Of a DNA stretch of 64,000 bases, positions 5,004 through 46,357 are shown one piece after another. The notes beneath the pieces were generated by a model. That model made no database searches and had not been told where the DNA came from. It saw only the letters and a program-made list of their open reading frames with translations. Source of the DNA: Treponema sp. (GTDB lineage: Bacteria; Spirochaetota; Spirochaetia; Treponematales; Treponemataceae); the NCBI GenBank assembly GCA_016281495.1, contig JAEEIU010000012.1, positions 62,001 through 126,000 of the forward strand, in the 5' to 3' direction. The number at the start of each line of letters is the position of its first letter. Position 1 is the first letter of the stretch. Both the position numbers and the translations under genes were made by a program.

Positions 5004-7016
5004 TTATTTTTTATCGCCCTTTCCGGCGACAGTATCAAACGCTTTCTTAAGGTTAAGCAGCAGAGCCCGCTTTTCCGTTAACGAAAGTTTCTTGATGTCA
5101 ATTGAATCATTGTTTACAATAAGCTCATTGTTATCCGTAATCCTTACGATTTCTTTCTTTGCCTCGTTGTTTATCAAACGCAGCGGCTTATATCCTGTAA
5201 CAGGTTCCGGGATTCCCTTCATGTTATAAGTGCCTGCCACGACACAATCGATGTCATCCTTTACGAGCATGTATGTATCTTCACTTATAAGGATTGAGTC
5301 CGGTTCACAGGCTGCCTCATAACGGGCTGCAAGGTTTACGTTGTTACCGATGATTGTATAGTCCATTTTCATTTCTGAACCAAAGTTACCAATCGTACAA
5401 TAACCTGTGTTGATTCCCATTCGGACATGGAAAGGATTTGCAATACCCTTGTGCTTCCACTGATCACGGAATTCGATCATTGAATGCTGCATCTCCATTG
5501 CCATCATTACAGCGCGCATTGCATGGTCTTTATCTGATGTAAACTCTGGATCACCAAAGAATACCATGACGGCATCACCAACGTATTTATCGATTGTGCC
5601 GCGATATTTTTCTGCAATCTGTGCCATGCGGTCAAGATAAGAGTTAAGGAGTGATGAGATGTCCTCTGGCTCAAGAGAATCTGTTGTTGCTGTAAAATTC
5701 TTGACGTCGGAGAAAAATACTGTAAGCTTTTTGCGGTAATGCGTATCGATACTTGTATCGCGTTCACCACCTGCAATTGATGCATAGAGCTGAGGTGAAA
5801 GATAATGCTTCATCTTTTCGTTAAGGTTATTTATCTGCTCTGTGCGTTCTGCGACAGTCTGCTCCAGTGAACTGTTCATGCTTTCGATTGTAGAAATCTT
5901 GTTGCTGAGCTCTGTCCTCAGTTCATTGAATGCCTCTCCCAAACGTCCTATTTCATCGTTGATGCTGAGCTTAACTTCTTCTTCCAGATTTCCCGACCTG
6001 AAATTATTGACACCAGTCAAAAGCTGTCCCAGTGGATTAAGAATTGAGTCAGACACTTTAAGAACAACAATCGAAACAATGGCAATAACGATTATGGCAA
6101 GAAGAACATACATTATTACGGCAGTTATGAATATCCTGAGATAAGAGAACGCAGACACATAAACATGAAGTATTCCAACCAAGCCGTCCTTGTTGTCCTT
6201 AAGAATGCGGTATTCGTTCAAGCCTGATTCACTAAAGCTGATGTCCTCCATATTCGTCTTAAGGTGTGCAACCTCGTTGTAACGCTCTATGGAAATCTCC
6301 AGAGCCGCTGTCCTTACGATAGGTTCTCCGTCCACATAAACTGCAATGTCAGCCTCGATGTCCTTGGACATTTTTGTAAAGAAATCAGAATTATCCTCAA
6401 AAACAAAACGTGCCATTACAACACCGATTACTTCTTCATTACGGAGGACAGGAACAGTTGCCACATAGCACGGGAAAGGATCCTGCAGGCCATTCATGAT
6501 AGAAATGGTATCGATGCTGGCGGTACCTGACAATCCCTCACGAAGCAAAAGCTGTTCATTTGCAGAAAGCTCCTTGCGGTTTGTGAACACAGAGGATTTT
6601 GTTTTTCCTACATCAGAAACAGTTTTTCCCTCTGTATCAAAAATCGTAACATAGTAGGAATCATTTTTCTCAAGCAGATCATTCAAATAGTCAGAGATAC
6701 GGACAGAGCTTTTCATATCAAGTCCAATTTGCAATGACTTGTCGTTTGCAATTGTTTTTGCAAATTCATATGTCTCTGACTTTTGGTTCTCCATGAAAAT
6801 TTCTGCAAGCTGAACTTTGTTCCTGATCAGGTTTACTGCATCCTTGCGGTTTGTAAAATAGAAATACACAACCGAAAAAACGCATATCAGGAGAATGATG
6901 CCGATTGAAAGCAGAATGAAAACTTTGCGAAGTCTGTTTTTAATAGAATTCCTCTTTTCAACAACTGCGTACTGGTCAATTCCAGAAACTACTTCCTGAT
7001 TATTTGAATCACTCAT
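5004..7016 (-). CDS. Membrane-bound class III adenylate cyclase with periplasmic sensor and HAMP
   Basis: About 670 residues. Order: short cytoplasmic tail, TM1 (KVFILLSIGIILLICVF), a Cache-like extracytoplasmic domain, TM2 (ITAVIMYVLLAIIVIAIVSI), HAMP (with NPLGQLL and SINDEIGRLGEAFNELR), a linker helix, then a cyclase homology domain. Both metal Asp are present (FFSDVKNFT and YVGDAVMVFFG), and MDYTIIGNNVNLAAR carries the D-x-T and N-x-x-x-R features of ATP-using enzymes. Start 7016 is chosen for GAGGAG just upstream; a frame open from 7058 lacks support. Its ATG overlaps the end of the LysRS-like gene by 8 bases, so it is translationally coupled and last in the operon. Confidence 0.93.
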   Translation of the reverse strand: MSDSNNQEVVSGIDQYAVVEKRNSIKNRLRKVFILLSIGIILLICVFSVVYFYFTNRKDAVNLIRNKVQLAEIFMENQKSETYEFAKTIANDKSLQIGLDMKSSVRISDYLNDLLEKNDSYYVTIFDTEGKTVSDVGKTKSSVFTNRKELSANEQLLLREGLSGTASIDTISIMNGLQDPFPCYVATVPVLRNEEVIGVVMARFVFEDNSDFFTKMSKDIEADIAVYVDGEPIVRTAALEISIERYNEVAHLKTNMEDISFSESGLNEYRILKDNKDGLVGILHVYVSAFSYLRIFITAVIMYVLLAIIVIAIVSIVVLKVSDSILNPLGQLLTGVNNFRSGNLEEEVKLSINDEIGRLGEAFNELRTELSNKISTIESMNSSLEQTVAERTEQINNLNEKMKHYLSPQLYASIAGGERDTSIDTHYRKKLTVFFSDVKNFTATTDSLEPEDISSLLNSYLDRMAQIAEKYRGTIDKYVGDAVMVFFGDPEFTSDKDHAMRAVMMAMEMQHSMIEFRDQWKHKGIANPFHVRMGINTGYCTIGNFGSEMKMDYTIIGNNVNLAARYEAACEPDSILISEDTYMLVKDDIDCVVAGTYNMKGIPEPVTGYKPLRLINNEAKKEIVRITDNNELIVNNDSIDIKKLSLTEKRALLLNLKKAFDTVAGKGDKK

Positions 7017-8667
7017 TCCGAACTCCTCGTAATAATGTTCTGTATATCGATTTATCAAGCAATGCTAACAGGGCTGCAAGTTTTGGTCCTTTGTCAGTAC
7101 CAAGCAGGAGTCTGTACATAGCAACAAATACTTCTTTTTGAAGGGCGGCAAGAGAACCATCCTCCGGCGTCTCATTTTCAGCAAGATGAAGCACATCCCT
7201 AGGGGCACGATACAAAAGGTCATTAATCTGAGCTTCAGTCTCCAGTGCAAATATCTCCCTGTTGATTACACTTATGGCTTTGCGGCAATTATCGGAGAAT
7301 GAATTCCATGCTTCCTGGTTGAATACCTTAAGCAGCTGAGTTTCATTCTTGATGTTGTTATACTCGTACAGCCATTTATATGCAGCATCCAGACGCGGAT
7401 AAATGTTCAGTTCCAGTTCTTCAAGGGAGCCCTCATATCCGGTCATCTTGTACAACAGGCGTGTAGCAAGTTTCTTGTCACCGTTTGCAATCTCAATGGC
7501 CATTGCAACAATCTTGAACGGAATCACGACAACAGGCGTTTCTACATGTTGTGTCGCAATCTTCCAGATACGTTTTTCAGTATCATTTGCCTGTCCGCTC
7601 CTGATCTTGCTGCAGAACATGTCCCATTCATGATAGATGCGGAAAATGCCGCTTTCAATATCAATCGTAATCGGCTTGTTCGGGGGAGTTTTGACCAAAA
7701 GCCATCGTACGATCGGAGGTTCAAGCACATCACAGAATCTGGATGCCAGAGCACGTTCTCCCAGGGCACGGGACACCTTTGAGACTCCAGGTATGCCAAT
7801 GAAACGATACAAAAGTGAAAAAGGAGTTTTACCTCCGAATATCTCCGCAGCAATCCTTGTTGCAACAGAATAACTTCCTGTATCCGTCAGCTGGTTTTCT
7901 CCCGAGCTTTCAAAATTAACTGAATCATCTGACCAGCGCAATGCCCAGTTTGCCTTCCATATAAGCTTGCCCTTGAAGCCGGACATAATGTTGTAGCTTC
8001 CCTCATGGCCGCATTTTTGGCAGACATAGGTGATTGTCGTTTTTTCCTTATCATACGACTTTGTTTTTGCACTGTCACGTCCGCATTTTTCGCAATAGAC
8101 TTCCAGAGGGTAATATGCCTCCCTCTGTTTTTTTACTTCATCTGTATAAGGTTGTTTGGCCGAATTGATGATGTCGAATATTTCAAAACGCTTTTCTATT
8201 GCATTCTGAATGTATTTCTTGTAATACCCAGACCTGTACTTCATTGCCTGATAATCATATTCAGGTGTAATTCCAACACGGTGCAGGCACAGTTCAAAGG
8301 TATGCATGTAATGTTCGCCATAGGAATTAAAGTTGCCGGAAAAATCCGGAACCTCACGCAGGGTTTTTCCAATATATGGCTCTACGGCATCCTTTGTCGT
8401 GTAAAAAGGTATCTTGCAAAAATGATCGTAATCATCCCAGTAATAGACAAGACGTACACGGCATCCTCTTGAACGCAGCTCGTCGGCAACAAATGAGCTT
8501 ATCGCAATCTCACGCAGAATACCAAAGTGAATGGGGCATGATGGAGTCATTCCGGCGGCACAAGTAATCAGGCCCTCGGTATCCATTCCCTGTTCCTTCA
8601 TATACGCGAAAAGATTTTCGACTACCTCATCAATCCAAAAGGATTTGTTCTTTAACTCGTAAATCAT
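7009..8667 (-). CDS. Class I lysyl-tRNA synthetase-like protein with degenerate catalytic motifs
   Basis: 552 residues with the overall layout of spirochaete class I LysRS: an N-terminal Rossmann start (AAGMTPSCPIHFGILRE, residues 37-53), a four-Cys zinc element (C192, C195, C216, C219) and the conserved end DKGPKLAALLALL. As I recall the family, active enzymes have HIGN and a KISSSSG-type loop; here they read HFGI (47-50) and SKVSRALGE (296-304), and the usual His pair near residue 258 is missing (GENQ). It starts with GGAGAGA before the ATG and is coupled to the cyclase. It may be a non-catalytic paralogue or sensor, or a diverged enzyme; the housekeeping LysRS is probably elsewhere. Confidence 0.8.
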   Translation of the reverse strand: MIYELKNKSFWIDEVVENLFAYMKEQGMDTEGLITCAAGMTPSCPIHFGILREIAISSFVADELRSRGCRVRLVYYWDDYDHFCKIPFYTTKDAVEPYIGKTLREVPDFSGNFNSYGEHYMHTFELCLHRVGITPEYDYQAMKYRSGYYKKYIQNAIEKRFEIFDIINSAKQPYTDEVKKQREAYYPLEVYCEKCGRDSAKTKSYDKEKTTITYVCQKCGHEGSYNIMSGFKGKLIWKANWALRWSDDSVNFESSGENQLTDTGSYSVATRIAAEIFGGKTPFSLLYRFIGIPGVSKVSRALGERALASRFCDVLEPPIVRWLLVKTPPNKPITIDIESGIFRIYHEWDMFCSKIRSGQANDTEKRIWKIATQHVETPVVVIPFKIVAMAIEIANGDKKLATRLLYKMTGYEGSLEELELNIYPRLDAAYKWLYEYNNIKNETQLLKVFNQEAWNSFSDNCRKAISVINREIFALETEAQINDLLYRAPRDVLHLAENETPEDGSLAALQKEVFVAMYRLLLGTDKGPKLAALLALLDKSIYRTLLRGVRNE

Positions 8668-37017: not shown

Positions 37018-37206
37018 AATGTCCACTCCTAGTTTTTATATCTTACATTAAATAGACTATCAGAATAAAAACCTTATGTCCATCGTCTTAAGCTCATATG
37101 CCCGTATTTTCCCCTTCCCGCTTAACATTTTCCTTCCGTTCCTGTAGAATTACAGTATTGGGGTTTGGGGAGACATTTTGTTCCCTGTAAAATCCGGGGG
37201 GTATCC

Positions 37207-38709
37207 ATGAAAAATATAAAAGTATTTCTGCTTAGCGTAATAGTCTTATGTATGGGACAGCTTTTTGCCACTGTGCCGGAGACGGTTATCGAAAAGCTCC
37301 CGGAGGGCATAAATCATAAATCAGTCATTGCATTCGGGAAACATGAAGGAAATCAGTTTGATTTTATTTATACTGATGGAAACGAGTATTTTATAGACTC
37401 ATGCGGAACGAAAATCGGACCGTTCAAATCAGTTCCCAGAATGATCTTCTCTGGAGACAATCTTGCATATGTCTTTACCGACGAAAATGAAAAATGGCAT
37501 GTCGTGCTTAACGAAAAAGAGCTTGGAGTCTACGAGGAGCTTTACTATTTTGGCTTCATGTCGTCGGATCCGGACAAATACACTTACCTTGCTAAAAAAG
37601 AAGACGGCTGGTACATAATCACGGAAGAAAAATCTTACGGTCCATTTGATAAAAAAGCAGATTTTGTCTTGAGGAAAAAGGACGGAAGCATATGCTATTG
37701 TGTAGAGGAAGGCAACTTTGATTACGTTTATACAGATGGAGAAAAACGCGGACCATTTAATTTTGTTGAAACCAACGGATTCTTTATACGGGAAGTTGAA
37801 TCTTTCATCTATTCATGGGCAGACATTTATTCAAACGAATATCATCTGTGTATCGACGGCAAGGATTCAGAGGCATATAATTCACTAGAATTTTTCCCCT
37901 CGGACGATGGAAGGCTATATTACATCTATGAGACAGTGGATTTTAAAACTACACGCCTAATGTGCGACGACAAAATCCTAAAGGAACTGGATGCCTCCGA
38001 ATATGGAACCGCACCATATTCTTCCTCCTCTGCAGACAACGGTTTATGCATTTCGCTGGGACATAAATTAAACTATGATGAAAGATGGGTATTTCTACTA
38101 AAGGACGGAGAGATTAAAGCTGAATTAAAAATCGAGGCGGTTGATACAGACCACGAATACCCGTTATTCTTCTTCCACGATTTGCAGGTTTCATGTCCTG
38201 CCGGTAAATTCGGTCCCTATCAGGAAATTCTAGAAGTGGAGTTTGACAGATTTGGACGTGCGTTTTGGGTTGCAAGGGAAAAATCAGAAGACGATAATCC
38301 TTATTCACGACACTGTGGAGTTTATATCGATGGTAAATTGATTTATGAATCCGACAGGTTAGACTATATATTTGATTTTGACACTCTCGATGATAAATTC
38401 ATTATTATTGCAGGTTATGATTTCGATGTCTTGATTGTTAACGGCAGAAGATACGATTTAAGCGGTGATCCCACTGTCCTGAATAAAATGCTTGGCATGC
38501 TTCTTTCATCAAATTATCCACATAAATCAGTCATAGCTATAAGCCCCAGGCTTTTACCGGATAGCGATGATTTTATCTTCTTTTACTATACAGATGACTA
38601 TCATATAGAATGCTTCTTCCATGACGGAACTTTCTACAAGGCTTTCTGCGACGAGAAATTCATCTATTTTATAGATGGAAACTCAATAAAAAGGATGGAA
38701 TTTAACTAA
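37207..38709 (+). CDS. Secreted repeat protein of unknown function
   Basis: About 500 residues. Signal peptide MKNIKVFLLSVIVLCMGQLFA. The mature chain repeats a short unit around G-P-F/Y (IGPFKSV, YGPFDKK, RGPFNFV, FGPYQEI) with strand-rich, aromatic-rich stretches, which suggests a beta-propeller. No enzyme motif is seen. Start 37207 follows GGGGGG; the frame is open from 37165. It is acidic and likely periplasmic or surface-exposed. Confidence 0.7.
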   Translation: MKNIKVFLLSVIVLCMGQLFATVPETVIEKLPEGINHKSVIAFGKHEGNQFDFIYTDGNEYFIDSCGTKIGPFKSVPRMIFSGDNLAYVFTDENEKWHVVLNEKELGVYEELYYFGFMSSDPDKYTYLAKKEDGWYIITEEKSYGPFDKKADFVLRKKDGSICYCVEEGNFDYVYTDGEKRGPFNFVETNGFFIREVESFIYSWADIYSNEYHLCIDGKDSEAYNSLEFFPSDDGRLYYIYETVDFKTTRLMCDDKILKELDASEYGTAPYSSSSADNGLCISLGHKLNYDERWVFLLKDGEIKAELKIEAVDTDHEYPLFFFHDLQVSCPAGKFGPYQEILEVEFDRFGRAFWVAREKSEDDNPYSRHCGVYIDGKLIYESDRLDYIFDFDTLDDKFIIIAGYDFDVLIVNGRRYDLSGDPTVLNKMLGMLLSSNYPHKSVIAISPRLLPDSDDFIFFYYTDDYHIECFFHDGTFYKAFCDEKFIYFIDGNSIKRMEFN

Positions 38710-38804: not shown

Positions 38805-40604
38805 ATGTCAAACAAAGATAAGCTTAAAAATATGTCAACAAAGAAGAAATCACGCCTGTTGTTCTGGGGAATGCTTGGTCCGCTTCTTGTAGTAACGATT
38901 GCTGCATGTTCTTTCTTCTATTATGTTTCTAACAAAATAATTGAGTATTATCTGAGGTCAGAACTTTCTTATACAGTTGAAAAAGTAAATTCCAGCATTC
39001 TTGAGCACGTCAATCCAATAATGGTGAACATAGAGGATTTTGCCAATTTTGCAAGTCTTTCTGATGACGTGGATATCTACAAGCCTCTTGTCCAGACTTT
39101 CCAGAAGAATCTTGACTATTCAACAGGATTCTATTATGCAACAAAGGAGTCCGTAAAAAAAGGCGAAGGTTTCTTTGTTCATAGCGGTGGATGGGTCCCT
39201 CCCTCTGACTATGACCAGACGACAAGGGAATGGTATATAAACGCAATAAACAATCCGGGCAAGCTGGCATTTGCATCTCCATTTATTGATGCCGACACCG
39301 GAGAATTGATAATCACAGTTTCCAAGGCAGTCAATGACACTCGCGGAAGAGTAAAAGGTGTTGTAGCGTGTGACATTTTGCTTTCACGTTTGACAAAGCT
39401 TTTCCAGGACACAAAGATTTCCGAAAATACCGTGATCAACCTGATTACACAGGACGGCTATTACATGACCAACAGCGATTCATCAAAGGTAATGAACAAG
39501 AAATATTTTGATGAAACCTCATTTGCCGGAGACATGAAACAATGGTTGAACGGAGATCTTAAAACAGAGGTTACGAATAAAAATTTTTATGCAGTATGCA
39601 GGATCGGTTATTCTCCATGGTTCATCATAATCGAAGGTCCTGTCGTAGATTTCAAGGGACAGCTTGCCAACGTCATATTCACATTTGAGATTGCGCTCAT
39701 CATCTTCAGCATCATCACTTCCCTGTTGAACATCCACACCATCCGCAAGATGAGGAAGGGTGAACAGCAGCTGGGTGCAAACCTTTTTGCAGAAACTCAG
39801 ACACTTGCCGTTGCCGCCAAGGAAAATGCCGCCACCGCACAGGATCAGAGTGCCGCCGTCAAGGAAATCGTTGCCACAATGGAAGACTCCAACGCACTTT
39901 CCGAAAACATTGCCTCCAAAATCCATGACGTGTCCAAGGTCGCGGAAAAAACCTCATCCGATGTTGCAGAGGGTGTTGCCTCCATCGAAAACAACGTCGC
40001 ACAGCTTCATGCAATTTTTGATGCCAACCAGCAGACAATCGAGGGCATGAAGGTTCTTAGCAAGAGCATAGAAAGCATCTGGGACATCGTTACATTGATC
40101 AACAACGTAGCCGACCAGGCAAAAATCATAGCCTTTAACGCAGAGCTTGAGGCATCCAGCGCAGGTGAGGCAGGAAAGAGCTTCCGTATTGTTGCCAACG
40201 AAATCCGCCGCCTTTCTGACGGTATCATCGACGGAACAAAAGAAATCAAGGAGCGCATAAACGAGATTCAGCATTCCTCAGACTCCCTTATCCTTGCATC
40301 CGAAAGTGGAACCGAAAAAATCAACGAGGGTTACGAGAACGCAAAGAATCTTGGCGAAATGTTTGCAAGCATCAAGAACTCTGCCGAAATCACGGCATCT
40401 TCAGCAGGCGATATAACGGACATCATTCAGCAGCAGACAAATGCCTCAGAGCAGATTTTGATTGCACTGAAACAGATATCAGCCGGTGTAGAAAACTTTA
40501 CAGTTGCAACTGACAATATTTCTTCTTCATCAGAACAGATCCGCTCAATGTCAGAGGCAATGAACAACAGCATCATGTCTTCCAAGGGCAAGAAAAAAGA
40601 ATAA
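38805..40604 (+). CDS. Methyl-accepting chemotaxis protein with non-standard signalling tip
   Basis: 599 residues. TM1 (WGMLGPLLVVTIAACSFFYYV), double-Cache ligand region (FYYATKESVKKGEGFF, REWYINAINNPGKLAFASPFID), TM2 near 295, no obvious HAMP, then a helical signalling domain. The hairpin tip reads IIAFNAELEASSAGEAGKSFRIVANEIRRL; ordinary receptors, including the two other MCPs here, have an AAIEAA(R/H)AGE tip. It heads a six-gene operon and probably docks the CheW and CheA-like proteins encoded next. Confidence 0.9.
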   Translation: MSNKDKLKNMSTKKKSRLLFWGMLGPLLVVTIAACSFFYYVSNKIIEYYLRSELSYTVEKVNSSILEHVNPIMVNIEDFANFASLSDDVDIYKPLVQTFQKNLDYSTGFYYATKESVKKGEGFFVHSGGWVPPSDYDQTTREWYINAINNPGKLAFASPFIDADTGELIITVSKAVNDTRGRVKGVVACDILLSRLTKLFQDTKISENTVINLITQDGYYMTNSDSSKVMNKKYFDETSFAGDMKQWLNGDLKTEVTNKNFYAVCRIGYSPWFIIIEGPVVDFKGQLANVIFTFEIALIIFSIITSLLNIHTIRKMRKGEQQLGANLFAETQTLAVAAKENAATAQDQSAAVKEIVATMEDSNALSENIASKIHDVSKVAEKTSSDVAEGVASIENNVAQLHAIFDANQQTIEGMKVLSKSIESIWDIVTLINNVADQAKIIAFNAELEASSAGEAGKSFRIVANEIRRLSDGIIDGTKEIKERINEIQHSSDSLILASESGTEKINEGYENAKNLGEMFASIKNSAEITASSAGDITDIIQQQTNASEQILIALKQISAGVENFTVATDNISSSSEQIRSMSEAMNNSIMSSKGKKKE

Positions 40605-40613
40605 AGGTTAAAC

Positions 40614-41069
40614 ATGGAAGAACTAGACTCTAAAACCCAGCAGGAAATCACTGAACTTTACGAAGGCAAGCAGGGTTCTTATCTGATCTTTTCTGTGGGG
40701 AAACACCGCTATGCCCTTAACTCCAGCCTCATCAAGGAAATCATGTACGGGGTAAAAATCCACGGGATTCCGTTTACTCCAGATTACATAGAGGGTGTAT
40801 TAAATTGCAGGGGCGTTCCCTTTACAGTTGTGAACCTTTTGAAAATGGCAAAAGAAGAAAACAGCGATATTGCCGAAAGCGTTTTTCTCTTGTTCAACCG
40901 TGACGATGACCAGTTTTGCCTTCACATTTCCAACATCGAGGTCTTTTTTGAACCGGAAGAGGATGACATTCTTGAAGACAAGGTAAAATACAAGTTCAAG
41001 TTCATTCCTCTCTTTAACGCAGACAAAATCGAAGAAACCCTTTGCAAAGATTTAGGTAAGGATGAATAG
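40614..41069 (+). CDS. cheW: CheW coupling protein
   Basis: 151 residues, one CheW domain: GSYLIFSVGKHRYALNSSLIKEIMYG, IPFTPDYIEGVLNCRGVPFTVVNL and a C-terminal FIPLFNADKI. In chemosensory arrays CheW bridges receptors and CheA. It starts 9 bases after the MCP gene with AAAGG upstream and is directly followed by cheB, clearly in the operon. Confidence 0.93.
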   Translation: MEELDSKTQQEITELYEGKQGSYLIFSVGKHRYALNSSLIKEIMYGVKIHGIPFTPDYIEGVLNCRGVPFTVVNLLKMAKEENSDIAESVFLLFNRDDDQFCLHISNIEVFFEPEEDDILEDKVKYKFKFIPLFNADKIEETLCKDLGKDE

Positions 41070-42113
41070 ATGGATCAACAGAAGATAAAGATTTTAATTG
41101 CTGATGACTCGGCCATTACCCGTGGCATTTTTGAAAAAAACTTCAATGCATCGGGCCTTTTTGAAATTGTGGGAATGGTTTCAAACGGACGCAAGGCAAT
41201 CGACTTTTGCAGTGAGAACGATGTTGATCTGGTAATTTCTGACTATGACATGCCGGAGATGAACGGTATAGAGACAACCAGAATCCTTACAAAACAATTC
41301 GGCATACCTGTATGCATTTACGCAGAGAACAATTCAGTAAGGTCACAGGCATTGCAGGAAGGTGCCATGCTTTTTGAAGTAAGGCCCAGCTTTACAAGCT
41401 TTACATCCCAATCCATGACACCATTTATAGAAAAGATAGCGGAGACCTACACAAAACGGTTCAGCTCAACTCATCATCATAAAAGACTTGCATCTGCAGA
41501 TACAACGGAGAAAAAAAAGACAGGGTATCCGGCTCACAGCTTTGACATCCTTTGCATAGGAGCATCCACCGGAGGCCCCACAGCCGTCCAGGAGATTTTA
41601 AAGGGACTTGGAAATGATTTTCCGCTTCCGATTCTTTATGTCCAGCATATTGATTCTGGTTCAGATAAAAAAATGGTGGAATGGTTCAACCAGACTTGCC
41701 CCAACACTCCCATGGAACTTGCAGAAGACGGTCAGCCTGCAAAAAAGGGACACGTGTACATGGCCCCAGCAGACACTCACCTTATAATTGATTACATCAA
41801 TGCAGCCGGTGCTCCAGTACTCAAGCTTTCTGATGAACCGCCGGAGAGGTTTTTAAAACCAGCCGTAAACAAGCTTTTTAGAAGTGCCGCATCCCTTTAC
41901 AAACAAAAATGCCTTGCCGTCCTGCTTACTGGAATGGGACGTGATGGAGCTGAGGGCTGCAAGGAAATAGTAGACAACGGCGGTTACACAATTGCCGAAG
42001 ACAAATCAACATGCGCTGTTTTTGGAATGCCTGCCGCCGCCATAGAACTGGATGCCGCAACAAAGGTGTATCCAAGAGGAATCATTGCACAGGAAATTTT
42101 GAAGCTTGTGTAA
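41070..42113 (+). CDS. cheB: CheB receptor methylesterase with receiver domain
   Basis: 347 residues. Receiver: ADDSAITRGIF with phospho-Asp D58 in VISDYDMPEMNG, but the usual K-P is R-P (EVRPSF). Methylesterase: catalytic Ser in CIGASTGGPTA, His in YVQHIDSG, Asp in LTGMGRDGA. It would remove methyl groups from receptor glutamates. It abuts cheW with no gap. The receiver change may alter phosphorylation control. Confidence 0.95.
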   Translation: MDQQKIKILIADDSAITRGIFEKNFNASGLFEIVGMVSNGRKAIDFCSENDVDLVISDYDMPEMNGIETTRILTKQFGIPVCIYAENNSVRSQALQEGAMLFEVRPSFTSFTSQSMTPFIEKIAETYTKRFSSTHHHKRLASADTTEKKKTGYPAHSFDILCIGASTGGPTAVQEILKGLGNDFPLPILYVQHIDSGSDKKMVEWFNQTCPNTPMELAEDGQPAKKGHVYMAPADTHLIIDYINAAGAPVLKLSDEPPERFLKPAVNKLFRSAASLYKQKCLAVLLTGMGRDGAEGCKEIVDNGGYTIAEDKSTCAVFGMPAAAIELDAATKVYPRGIIAQEILKLV

Positions 42114-42145
42114 TTTTCAGAATGTGACAATGGAGTTTTGAAGAT

Positions 42146-43015
42146 TTGAACCAATCAGAAAATTTGCTTGACGAAAAAACTTTAAACAAACTGATAGAAC
42201 TGATTACTCAAAAAACCGGAATCATTCCCCGCGACAGCCACCGGTCCGGCATTAAGAATTATGTAGAAAAACGCATGAAGGAACTTGAAGAAGTTTCAAA
42301 TTCAAGCAAGATTTCACCGGAGACTTTCCTTTCCTTAATCGAAGTGAATCCCGTTGAGATGGCCCTGCTCATAAACAGTTCTACTGTAAACGAGACATAT
42401 TTTTTCCGCGAGGAAGCTCAGTTTGATGTTCTGGAGCAAAAGGTGCTTCCTGATTTAAAGGCAAAAAACCCCATTACAATCCCCATAACGCCAATAAGAA
42501 TCTGGAGTGCCGCATGTTCAACCGGCGAAGAGATTTATTCGATTTTACTTTTGGCAGAATCACTCGGAATAAAAACTGAATGCACTGCAAGCGACATAAA
42601 CACAACAGTCCTGGAAAAATGCAAGAGCGGCTTCTACATGAAAAATGCGATACGTTCTGTAGACGGAGCAAAATACCAAAAGCTTCTTGAACAATACAAG
42701 ACAGGAACCGGTGAATTTCAACTTTCAGAAAAACTTCGTTCCAGCATCATCACAAAACATATAAACCTTTCTGACCTAACGGATTTCCCAAAGAATCAGA
42801 ACATCATTTTCATCCGCAACGTATTCATTTACTTTAGCAATGAGATGAAAAAGCAGATCCTGACAAAGATTGCGGAAGAATCTCTTGCACCAGGCGGATA
42901 CATCTTTGTCTCAATGAATGAGGTTGCAGTTCTGGATTCCCTTATGATTCCGGATTGTCTTGAACAGATTCATGACGGAAAGGTTTTCTATTTTCATAAG
43001 AAGGTGGGCAAATGA
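42146..43015 (+). CDS. cheR: CheR receptor methyltransferase
   Basis: 289 residues. INSSTVNETYFFRE is the CheR N-terminal hallmark; IWSAACSTGEEIYSI binds S-adenosylmethionine; CTASDINTTVLEKCKSG and NIIFIRNVFIYFS follow. The start is TTG 42146 with GGAG about 12 bases before. It overlaps the next gene by 4 bases (ATGA). With CheB it provides receptor adaptation for this operon. Confidence 0.94.
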   Translation: MNQSENLLDEKTLNKLIELITQKTGIIPRDSHRSGIKNYVEKRMKELEEVSNSSKISPETFLSLIEVNPVEMALLINSSTVNETYFFREEAQFDVLEQKVLPDLKAKNPITIPITPIRIWSAACSTGEEIYSILLLAESLGIKTECTASDINTTVLEKCKSGFYMKNAIRSVDGAKYQKLLEQYKTGTGEFQLSEKLRSSIITKHINLSDLTDFPKNQNIIFIRNVFIYFSNEMKKQILTKIAEESLAPGGYIFVSMNEVAVLDSLMIPDCLEQIHDGKVFYFHKKVGK

Positions 43016-44568
43016 AGACAACGGATGAAACTTTAAAATGTTACCTGGAAGAAACCAGACACCTCCTCTCCCTGATCAAGAATGATTCAAAGGGCTACAG
43101 AGAAAACCTTAAGCTCTTTAGCATGATTAAGGACAACTCAAAGATTCTTGGGTTTACAACTGTTTACAATTTATTCAAGGGCATCGAGGACATTTACAAA
43201 TCCCTCTGCGACGGAAAGATTGCATACACCGAAAACCTGGAACTGCTGCTTAAAATCGTATGCGGAGAGATTGATGAATGCTGTAACATGATAGAAGACG
43301 GTTCTCCGCTTTTAAATGACATTGATGTCCGTCCTTACCTCTTGTACTGTGACAAGGCAGTTGCCGGAGAAATATTTGACCCTTCCCACCTTACAAAAAA
43401 GACAGAAAATGATGACTGGCTTGAAAACAAAATCAAGGTTTCCCGCGCACGTAAAAAGAGGGAACAAAAAAACTCAGACCAAATCATAAAGGTTTCCTCA
43501 GACAAGATTTCCAACATCGTTAACCTTCAGGAAGAGATGATTGCCAGAACCTACATAATAGAAAATCAGATTACACTCCTGAAAAACGCCATCTCCGACA
43601 AAAACCTTTCTGCGGTAAACGAGGCATACAAGCTCCTTGTCGGTGACACACAGAACCTTCAGAATTCCCTTTTGCTTGTTCACGAGAATTTGATGGGCCT
43701 GATGCAGGATGAATCCCTACTCAAAAACCATCAGAAATTCTACGGATTTTTCATCATGGCAAACGGCAAGAAATATCTTATTCCATCTGAATTCATTCAC
43801 GATGTCATCTGCGAAATTCCGCTTAATTACGAGACAGTACAGAATCAAAAGAGTGTCCGCTATGTCGTGGAAAATGAATCTGGCGAAAAAGAGGATGAGG
43901 TAGTTGAATATGTTCCAATCTATTATCTTTCTTCTTTGCTTCCGGGTCAGGCCGTAAAGAACAGGAACGTAATGGATACGATACTTGTGGTGGATTACCA
44001 GTCACAGAAAATTGGCATCATAGTTGACAGTGTAATGAAGTTTGCTTCTGTCATAAAGAAAAGCATGCCATCTTCGTTTGAAAAATTTGCTCCGGTCGAA
44101 GGACTTGCATTTGATGAAAAATACGACATGATTCCTATACTCCATGTTCCAGACATCATGAAGCGCTTCCGTTCTCTGCGTGGATATGACGTAAAGAAAT
44201 ACGAGGCCATCACAAAAAAACACGTCAACAAAATCCTTATCGTTGATGATTCCGAAACCACACGTCAGATTGAACGTACAATTCTTCTGGCAAACAATTT
44301 CCTTGTGGAAGAAGCAAGCGACGGAATCAATGCAATAGAAAAAATAAAGCAAAAACAATTTGACCTGATTCTTTGCGACGATGAAATGCCACGTATGAAC
44401 GGAGACATCCTTCTGGACAATATCCGCCGCATGGAAAACTACAAGAATGTCCCTGTTGTTGCAATGGCCGAAAGACCTTTGGCAAAAGCAGATGCCTTTG
44501 TCAGCAAATCAGGATTTTCAAGAGACACACTGATACAAACCCTTAAAAGGAGCCTAGACAATGAGTGA
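43012..44568 (+). CDS. CheA-like scaffold lacking the kinase domain, with C-terminal receiver
   Basis: 518 residues. Residues 1-110 look like an Hpt (P1) bundle, but aligning FSMIKDNSKILGF with the CheA P1 motif puts Ser37 where the phospho-His belongs. About 160-240 resembles the CheA dimerisation region (VSSDKISNIVNLQEEMIAR). A CheW-like (P5) domain follows from about 243 (FYGFFIMANGKKYLIPSEFI). No HATPase_c motifs lie between. Residues about 400-518 are a receiver with Asp in LILCDDEMPRMNG and Lys in FVSKSGF. It overlaps both neighbours (4 and 8 bases). Confidence 0.85.
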   Translation: MKTTDETLKCYLEETRHLLSLIKNDSKGYRENLKLFSMIKDNSKILGFTTVYNLFKGIEDIYKSLCDGKIAYTENLELLLKIVCGEIDECCNMIEDGSPLLNDIDVRPYLLYCDKAVAGEIFDPSHLTKKTENDDWLENKIKVSRARKKREQKNSDQIIKVSSDKISNIVNLQEEMIARTYIIENQITLLKNAISDKNLSAVNEAYKLLVGDTQNLQNSLLLVHENLMGLMQDESLLKNHQKFYGFFIMANGKKYLIPSEFIHDVICEIPLNYETVQNQKSVRYVVENESGEKEDEVVEYVPIYYLSSLLPGQAVKNRNVMDTILVVDYQSQKIGIIVDSVMKFASVIKKSMPSSFEKFAPVEGLAFDEKYDMIPILHVPDIMKRFRSLRGYDVKKYEAITKKHVNKILIVDDSETTRQIERTILLANNFLVEEASDGINAIEKIKQKQFDLILCDDEMPRMNGDILLDNIRRMENYKNVPVVAMAERPLAKADAFVSKSGFSRDTLIQTLKRSLDNE

Positions 44569-46357
44569 GAAAATTTTAGTTTTGGAACCATCCACTACAA
44601 CGCAATCAATCATCACTTCAGCACTCAAAAAATCTGCTTATGAAAGTACTTTTGAAACAAACGGACTTAAACTTTTGATTTCAATGTACAACACGCTTCC
44701 TTCTGTGGTATTGATAAATGCAAAATGTATGAACCCAAAAAGCAGCGAGCTGGTTCGACTTATAAAAAGCGTTGACCGCCTTAGGAAAATTCCTGTGGGT
44801 GTTTATGCCGTAGGTGATTTTTCTTTTGAACAGCATTACATGAGGAACTCTGGTGCGGATCTTTTCATTCATTTTGAATCTGAATCACTTGTTGGAAACA
44901 TAGAGACGCTTTTGGACCTTGCCAGGAAAAACAAGCTCTCTGCCCCAATGGAAAGTGACATAATGAAAAGCGGCATTGCAGAACAGGTTTTTGCTCTCAT
45001 GTCGAATCTTCCTGACATTGAGGAACTGTGCCATCGTTTCCTTTGCCTCCTTACTGAATTCTGTGAGGTCCCGGCTGTTTCAATCTTGCTTAATGACGAG
45101 GACGGTGCATATGGCTATTATATCTGCTCCAGCAATTTTACAGAAACAGAGAAAGCGGATTTCATAAAAGTCTGTGCAACCGATTTTGACGAGATCATTC
45201 CATATACAAACATCCGCATGGTTAATCCCAAGTGCCTTGAGCCCGATTTTGACCTGAGCAAATATCACACAAGCACGATTCCGCTTTCCGCATTCCAGAG
45301 GGAAGTCCTTATGGATTCAAAAAAGAAAAAAGTCGGAACCGTTAACGCCGTCAGGGAAGGAACCTTTACTTCACATCAGATTGACCTGCTCGATTTCTGT
45401 ATTGAGCTGTTTAACCCGCTTGTAGAAAATGCCCTTTACCTTAAAAGGAAGCTCAAGTTCGAGAAAAACATCCGCAAGGCATTCAGCCGTTTTGTTCCAT
45501 CTCAGATTATTGACGAACTTGTTAAGGATGCCGATCAGTCTGCCAAAGTAAGTGTCGGAGAAAAACGTGACGTTGCAATCCTGTTCAGTGATATCCGCTC
45601 ATTTACAACAATAAGCGAACAAAACAAACCTGAAACCATCGTTGCCTTTTTAAACAGATATTTTACTGTCATGTGCACGATAATCAAAAAACATGGCGGT
45701 ACAATAGACAAGTTCATCGGAGACGCCATCATGGCTTTGTTCGGTGCCCCAGTCAGTTATGAGGATAATGCCCGTCGTGCCGTAGCTGCTGCCTATGAGA
45801 TGAGGGAAGCGTTAAAGACTGTTGAGCTTGAAGATTTGGTCATGCCCGAAGGAATGAAGTTCAACATTGGCATTGGCATTCACTATGGAGACGTTATCGT
45901 CGGTTCAATCGGTTCAAATGACAAGACAGATTATTCTGTAATCGGAGACAATGCAAACCTTGCATCCCGCATGGAAGGCCTTACTAAAACATATGGCACA
46001 ATGATTCTTGTTACAGATGCCGTAAGGAATGACTTATACAAAACAAACGGAGACACATGTGGTTTTGAATTCCGTTATCTTGATGACGTTAAGGTAAAGG
46101 GAAAAGAAAAGGCCGTACCAATTTATTCGATTGATTCTTCGCCAGATGAATTCCCAAGGGAATACCGTGATGCCTATTCCAAAGGATTTGACCTTTACAA
46201 GCAGGGAATATGGAATCTTGCCCGTGAATATTTTGAAAAAGCCCTTGCCCTGGTTCCTGAGGACAAATCCGCCAAGCTCATGCTGGACCGCTGCATTGAG
46301 TTCATCAAAAATCCGCCGGCAAACTGGGATGGAGCAATAACGTTCCACACGAAATAG
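44561..46357 (+). CDS. Class III adenylate cyclase with degenerate receiver and GAF-like region
   Basis: 598 residues. The N-terminal 125 residues have a receiver-like fold, but the phospho-Asp position is Asn (VVLINAKCM, N53) and the acidic pair is E9-P10. Residues about 140-300 resemble a GAF domain. The catalytic domain follows FSRFVPSQIIDEL and has both metal Asp (ILFSDIRSF and FIGDAIMALFG), then TDYSVIGDNANLASRME. The C-terminal 60 residues look TPR-like (YSKGFDLYKQGIWNLAREYF). Last gene of the chemosensory operon; probably its output enzyme, making cAMP. Confidence 0.92.
   Translation: MSEKILVLEPSTTTQSIITSALKKSAYESTFETNGLKLLISMYNTLPSVVLINAKCMNPKSSELVRLIKSVDRLRKIPVGVYAVGDFSFEQHYMRNSGADLFIHFESESLVGNIETLLDLARKNKLSAPMESDIMKSGIAEQVFALMSNLPDIEELCHRFLCLLTEFCEVPAVSILLNDEDGAYGYYICSSNFTETEKADFIKVCATDFDEIIPYTNIRMVNPKCLEPDFDLSKYHTSTIPLSAFQREVLMDSKKKKVGTVNAVREGTFTSHQIDLLDFCIELFNPLVENALYLKRKLKFEKNIRKAFSRFVPSQIIDELVKDADQSAKVSVGEKRDVAILFSDIRSFTTISEQNKPETIVAFLNRYFTVMCTIIKKHGGTIDKFIGDAIMALFGAPVSYEDNARRAVAAAYEMREALKTVELEDLVMPEGMKFNIGIGIHYGDVIVGSIGSNDKTDYSVIGDNANLASRMEGLTKTYGTMILVTDAVRNDLYKTNGDTCGFEFRYLDDVKVKGKEKAVPIYSIDSSPDEFPREYRDAYSKGFDLYKQGIWNLAREYFEKALALVPEDKSAKLMLDRCIEFIKNPPANWDGAITFHTK

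Follow-up and report, generated by a model that had tools for sequence, protein, structure and literature searches.

Within a 64,000-nucleotide stretch of a Treponema sp. genome (the window; GenBank assembly GCA_016281495.1, contig JAEEIU010000012.1, positions 62,001 to 126,000 of the forward strand), six open reading frames (ORFs) on the plus strand at 38805-46357 encode a chemosensory system whose CheA has lost its kinase domain, P4, and is directly followed by a class III adenylate cyclase. The product of 43012-44568 is a genuine CheA descendant with the architecture P1(no His)-P3-P5-REC. A scan of GTDB genomes for such P4-less CheA loci found 41, all in Treponema or uncultured Spirochaetales/Spirochaetaceae, and, besides the window, 34 of these hold all six genes in identical order with unrelated flanks, which is conservation far beyond chance and answers the co-occurrence check in spirochaete genomes proposed by an earlier note made from the letters of the window.

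A CheA without P4, followed by an adenylate cyclase

The six genes are separated by 9, 0, 32, -4 and -8 bases, and Pfam assigned their products, in order, to dCache_1+MCPsignal, CheW, REC+CheB_methylest, CheR, CheW+REC and Guanylate_cyc+TPR. This agrees with the earlier note, which had described adjacent same-direction genes with small gaps or overlaps for a methyl-accepting chemotaxis protein (MCP), CheW, CheB, CheR, a CheA-like protein and a cyclase, and an operon with neither a CheA kinase nor a CheY gene. Indeed, no stand-alone CheY or CheA kinase domain lies within the operon, and the 518-residue CheA-like protein has no Pfam match to Hpt, H-kinase_dim or HATPase_c.

Relatives of this protein, sought in 197 genomes of the order, were of two kinds within the genus and family, one of ~500-570 amino acids matching it end to end, and one of ~700 amino acids matching residues ~16-230 and ~243-518. 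By Pfam the longer proteins are Hpt-HATPase_c-CheW-REC, and in the alignment their insertion displays N, G1, F and G2 boxes; the insertion is therefore P4, and the window protein is a CheA from which P4 has been excised between P3 and P5. At this junction (residues ~230-242, 43699-43737) the relatives hold ~185 residues of P4, and in every complete P4-less copy P3 is fused in frame to P5.

Using Pfam, the alignment of relatives, an AlphaFold model and a structure search, we delimited P1 (Hpt-like; residues 1-120, 43012-43371), the P3 dimerisation hairpin (161-240, 43492-43731; helices 163-195 and 199-230), the CheW-like regulatory domain P5 (241-402, 43732-44217) and a receiver (403-518, 44218-44565). 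The model, built on a 24-row alignment with a mean predicted local distance difference test score of 78, displays an N-terminal five-helix bundle, a helical hairpin at 163-230, the P5 barrel and the receiver. P3 was undetected by Pfam and recognised through the model and its structural match, with residues 158-388 (P3 and P5) superposing on Escherichia coli CheA (6s1k_A; Z 18.9, 193 residues, root mean square deviation (rmsd) 6.5). P5, also recognised by Pfam, matched Thermotoga CheA (4jpb_A; Z 18.7, rmsd 1.6), as well as 1b3q, while receiver matches dominated the structure search as a whole.

The position of the P1 phospho-His is taken by Ser37 (43120-43122), and this column has no His in 41/41 P4-less proteins compared with a His in 20/21 full-length relatives. 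With both P4 and this His lost, this CheA can neither autophosphorylate nor relay phosphate through P1. The receiver retains Asp456 and Lys499, with Ser or Ala at the Thr/Ser column of the P4-less alignment, and has lost helix alpha4 through a nine-residue deletion (44467-44493) seen in 33/33 parsed P4-less copies and in 0/20 parsed full-length proteins. Thus, compared with canonical CheA (P1-P5), the structure of P3 and P5, the position in the operon and descent from full-length CheA are shared, whereas P4 and the P1 phospho-His are missing. The earlier label of a CheA-like protein, in an operon without a CheA kinase, is too weak for what is truly a CheA minus P4 that retains P3 and P5, the parts that form arrays. 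The P5-REC tail has the same domain order as CheV (CheW plus REC only), but identity with CheV was rejected, given the additional P1 and P3 and the descent from CheA in trees.

The final gene (44561-46357, plus strand) encodes a 598-residue class III adenylate cyclase with pseudo-receiver, GAF-like, cyclase and TPR-like regions. The pseudo-receiver (residues 1-124, 44561-44932), identified as a receiver by profile match, has Asn53 at the phospho-Asp position, and Asn replaces Asp here in 41/41 cyclases, making phosphorylation at this domain impossible. It is followed by a GAF-like domain and signalling helix (132-300, 44954-45460; Pfam GAF E 0.07, alpha/beta fold in the model), a putative sensor of the cyclase. 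In the catalytic domain (331-525, 45551-46135), D344 and D388 (metal), K384 and S/T459 (substrate pair; S459 in the window), N466 and R470 are present in 41/41 copies. This is an intact ATP-type, adenylate-cyclase set, from which formation of cyclic AMP (cAMP) is predicted; the Lys plus Ser/Thr pair we take to be typical of ATP-using class IIIb enzymes. Among solved structures, cyanobacterial cyclases, OaPAC and Pseudomonas aeruginosa CyaB (3r5g) come closest. The proposal that a cyclase ends the operon therefore stands, as a class III enzyme with intact catalytic residues and an invariant place as last gene, with the correction that it starts with an Asp-less receiver. The host genome (3.21 Mb, 98.8% complete) encodes 16 nucleotide-cyclase domains and seven cyclic nucleotide monophosphate (cNMP)-binding domains, which makes cAMP signalling plausible here. 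A second nucleotide cyclase in the window, of membrane type (dCache_3-HAMP-cyclase), lies at 5004-7058 on the minus strand.

Conservation and origin of the P4-less system

Where a source is stated, the P4-less loci come from the ruminant gut, and they derive from both isolates, including T. bryantii, T. zioleckii, JC4 and C6A8, and metagenomes, with identities mostly of 42-84%. Five of the 41 loci end at contig edges and, among the 34 six-gene loci, one CheB (L117) was recognised by motif only. The cyclase lies directly 3' of the P4-less CheA in every untruncated locus, including two without CheB and CheR. When the window was compared with its closest relative, the ratio of non-synonymous to synonymous substitution rates (dN/dS) was about 0.04-0.08 for the six genes and about 0.04-0.11 for separate folded domains (P1, P3, P5, REC, pseudo-receiver, GAF, cyclase and TPR), with 0.06 for the His-less P1, 0.10 for P3 and 0.08 for the pseudo-receiver; some of the dS values are above 1 and only approximate. 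Such ratios indicate strong purifying selection on all six genes and on each folded domain tested.

Full-length relatives encoded in cyclase operons have the P1 His and the N/G1/F/G2 boxes in 20/21 cases, one with a divergent G2, and both are kept in 17/17 further readable full-length relatives. In a tree built on P5 plus the receiver, with the alpha4 columns omitted, the 40 P4-less rows form one clade (Shimodaira-Hasegawa approximate likelihood ratio test (SH-aLRT) 100), which joins nine full-length proteins at SH-aLRT 98, of which eight retain kinase motifs; the outgroup has long branches and deeper rooting is uncertain. A single loss of P4 explains these data. The Asn of the cyclase receiver is already present in this full-length sister clade, while Asp is kept in several more distant full-length operons. 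As the sister clade has an intact kinase, a phospho-independent output would have come before kinase loss, and the suggested order is that the cyclase stopped accepting phosphate first and that the kinase was deleted afterwards.

One full-length CheA (L040:8245-10335, the same gene as L158; genome G095) has the P1 His replaced by Arg, the N and G2 boxes lost and the receiver Asp replaced by Ala, and this phospho-dead protein is still followed by a cyclase in its operon. It is a possible intermediate towards the kinase-free system, and may be either the sister of the P4-less clade or of independent origin (approximately unbiased test, p 0.41). Group-specific changes relative to the sister clade are densest in P3 (8/80 positions, compared with 7/162 in P5 and 0/116 in the receiver), a density that fits re-tooling of the element that once moved P4, although this is suggestive only. 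Nearly all full-length CheA-cyclase operons also encode a protein of 128-178 amino acids between CheW and CheB (for example L064:5972-6391, L034:5824-6348 and L042:4085-4471), which has no Pfam match and is absent from P4-less operons; profile comparison did not support a second CheW (probability 0.5%).

Receptor, adaptation enzymes and other CheA proteins

The MCP (38805-40604, plus strand, as are the three genes that follow; 599 residues) comprises a dCache_1 sensor and an MCP signalling domain with the tip FNAELEASSAGE. This tip is common to all related operons and missing from flagellar MCPs, so the divergent tip pointed out in the earlier note is real, and no other receptor in the genome has this tip subtype. 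In this receptor and in some relatives, the stretch from the second membrane helix to the signalling domain has no recognisable HAMP; the receptor of locus L063, in contrast, does carry HAMP. CheW (40614-41069; 151 residues) was assigned by Pfam, as was the methyltransferase CheR (42146-43015; 289 residues, TTG start). CheB (41070-42113; 347 residues) has a receiver with phospho-Asp58 and a methylesterase domain with S166, H193 and D292. CheB has no receiver domain in one clade (L115, L117, L118 (L118:6223-6942) and L129), which includes T. zioleckii, and CheB and CheR are both lost in T. bryantii XBD1002 (L108:5731-11355) and at L136 (L136:3045-8633), where MCP, CheW, CheA and cyclase stay. 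Both enzymes are thus dispensable for the unit.

The ORF upstream (37165-38709) recurs only in the nearest relative, L101, and was rejected as an operon member; the downstream DUF2007-like ORF likewise recurs only in L101, apart from a weak DUF2007 match in L123. Being limited to the nearest relative, these flanking ORFs fall outside the conserved unit. A promoter scan at the operon gave promoter-like sites near the shuffled expectation and no more terminator-like sites than shuffled sequence.

Two intact CheA proteins are encoded elsewhere in the window genome. One belongs to the flagellar operon (contig C2), which encodes CheA(P1-P2-P3-P4-P5), a CheW-CheR fusion, CheX and CheY. The other is full-length and lies in a paralogous operon (L064:5488-18001, contig C36) with CheA-cyclase and, adjacent to them, three or more MCPs whose tips are of a related type; the cyclase receiver of this paralogue has Tyr at the Asp position, though its CheA looks active. 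When 11 genomes carrying P4-less CheA were searched with a P4 profile, no P4 was found apart from those in intact CheAs, and a split kinase encoded elsewhere was rejected. A full-length paralogue with its own cyclase operon is present in at least six of the 11, the window's included, and one genome (G161) carries a 716-residue CheA. In four others (G113, G149, G151 and G157; 94-96% complete) the sole P4 is that of a flagellar-size CheA (843-854 residues). No dedicated partner kinase of the CheA3/CheA4 type was found, and the paralogues, where present, sit in separate complete operons.

Possible signal transfer with and without phosphorylation

The partnership of scaffold and cyclase is constant, and direct conformational control is the simplest reading of it. 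In an ancestral pathway of CheA plus cyclase, CheA would have shrunk to an array scaffold without kinase. Together with receptor and CheW, P5 and P3 of the P4-less CheA would still assemble as a core signalling unit, through which receptor conformation could travel to the class III adenylate cyclase of the neighbouring gene. The cyclase would dock through its pseudo-receiver and its GAF-like domain, with the P1 that lacks His and/or the scaffold receiver that lacks alpha4 as the probable sites, so that contact instead of CheA autophosphorylation would govern the cAMP level, while CheR and CheB, where present, would tune the receptor. Complex formation, contact sites and receptor control of cAMP are what we infer here. 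From the sequence evidence, we judge it somewhat better than an even bet that the receptor-CheW-CheA scaffold sets cAMP output by contact, without phosphotransfer of its own. That the whole array works without any kinase, as a mechanical relay through CheW and the kinase-deleted CheA to a cyclase docked by its pseudo-receiver, we place at even odds. The earlier note had read the operon along these lines; its interpretation is favoured by the conservation of the unit, by the absence of a CheA kinase from it and by the retention of P3 and P5, but the adaptation by CheB and CheR that it included is dispensable at two loci.

Several observations weigh against control by contact. The strongest objection is that the scaffold receiver keeps both Asp456 (40/40) and Lys499 (40/40), which leaves room for phosphorylation by an outside donor; the CheB receiver Asp is likewise kept in 32/32 copies that have the domain, and a flagellar-size CheA (815-857 residues) is encoded in 11/11 of the genomes tested. 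Mirror-tree correlation between CheA and cyclase domains was uninformative on contact, with 0.47 for P1 and the pseudo-receiver and the same for P1 and CheR. Another CheA, either the flagellar one or, where there is one, the full-length paralogue, or else acetyl phosphate, could donate phosphate to CheB and to the scaffold at their receivers, with the phosphorylated scaffold receiver controlling the cyclase, and Rhodobacter CheA3/CheA4 show that CheA functions are separable (PMC10782961, PMC6829392). We regard this as unlikely, though a serious contender: absence of the P1 His excludes a CheA3-like phosphorelay through P1, helix alpha4 is deleted from the scaffold receiver in all parsed copies, the CheB receiver is lost in one clade and CheB altogether at two loci, the cyclase receiver is unable to accept phosphate, and the receptor tip is unlike that of flagellar receptors. 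The earlier note held that its proposal would fail if the operon worked with a normal CheA encoded elsewhere; such CheAs are indeed encoded, but four genomes leave only the flagellar CheA as a candidate.

The receptor, CheW and scaffold might otherwise act on the flagellar or paralogous array as decoy or modulator, with the cyclase merely co-transcribed and separately regulated, for example through its GAF-like domain. CheV proteins modulate arrays, and P5-REC resembles CheV; the cyclase itself carries a putative sensor, in a genome with many nucleotide-cyclase domains. This we consider improbable, since scaffold and cyclase stay adjacent in every untruncated locus while CheB and CheR were lost twice, the CheA-cyclase pairing is found in full-length systems too, and the receptor tip is distinct. 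Losses of domains and catalytic residues are also typical of an operon decaying towards a pseudogene, and absence of P4 could in principle be an assembly artefact. Decay or assembly error is, however, ruled out at the sequence level and we give it hardly any weight, as the frames are open, dN/dS lies within 0.03-0.12 in all genes and folded domains, the cyclase active site is invariant, and P4-less copies recur across the 41 divergent loci of isolates and metagenomes.

Among known systems, receiver-cyclase outputs have been reported for chemosensory pathways with multidomain response regulators, of the alternative cellular function (ACF) type, with CheR-TPR clusters (PMC3447774). The operon shares with these MCP, CheW, CheB, CheR, CheA and a receiver-nucleotide cyclase as multidomain output regulator, and the full-length Treponema relatives fit well, several with CheR-TPR and CheA-REC; here, however, CheA lacks both P4 and the phosphorylatable His of P1 and is no functional kinase, Asp is missing from the cyclase receiver, and no TPR was matched in CheR. 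In P. aeruginosa, the Pil-Chp system, in which ChpA is an active kinase and PilG the response regulator, raises cAMP via the class III cyclase CyaB (PMC12632253). The chemosensory route to a class III cyclase is alike, and CyaB is one of the closest cyclases of solved structure, but the Pil-Chp kinase is active. To our knowledge, cyaB lies outside the pil-chp cluster. The nearest precedent is Rhodobacter sphaeroides CheA3, whose kinase domain is non-functional and whose P1 is phosphorylatable and served by the dedicated kinase CheA4 (PMC10782961, PMC6829392); in the Treponema protein P4 is fully excised and P1 is His-less, and at least four genomes have no dedicated kinase. A survey of 13,673 CheAs found P1, P3, P4 and P5 in all and deemed CheA identifiable by HATPase_c plus CheW (PMC10782961), a criterion to which P4-less proteins would probably be invisible. 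We found no description of a P4-deleted CheA or of a treponeme cyclase chemosensory operon in the open-access literature, subscription papers being outside this coverage.

Kinase activity of CheA is regarded as the defining, indispensable output of chemosensory arrays. Some 40 Treponema species nevertheless keep receptors, CheW, a P3/P5 scaffold and mostly the adaptation enzymes after deletion of the kinase. There is a real chance that this represents a kinase-free mode of signalling. If the array is kinase-free, a former Hpt-to-receiver phosphorelay would have become a contact that acts by allostery alone and has cAMP as its output, and if it drives the cyclase, the role of arrays in amplifying and adapting receptor signals would be separable from phosphorylation. 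With the full-length sister systems and the possible phospho-dead intermediate, the steps of this evolution can be tested, and the Treponema operon would, if this holds true, offer a natural kinase-free system for reading receptor conformation through P5, CheW and P3, with a direct cAMP readout.

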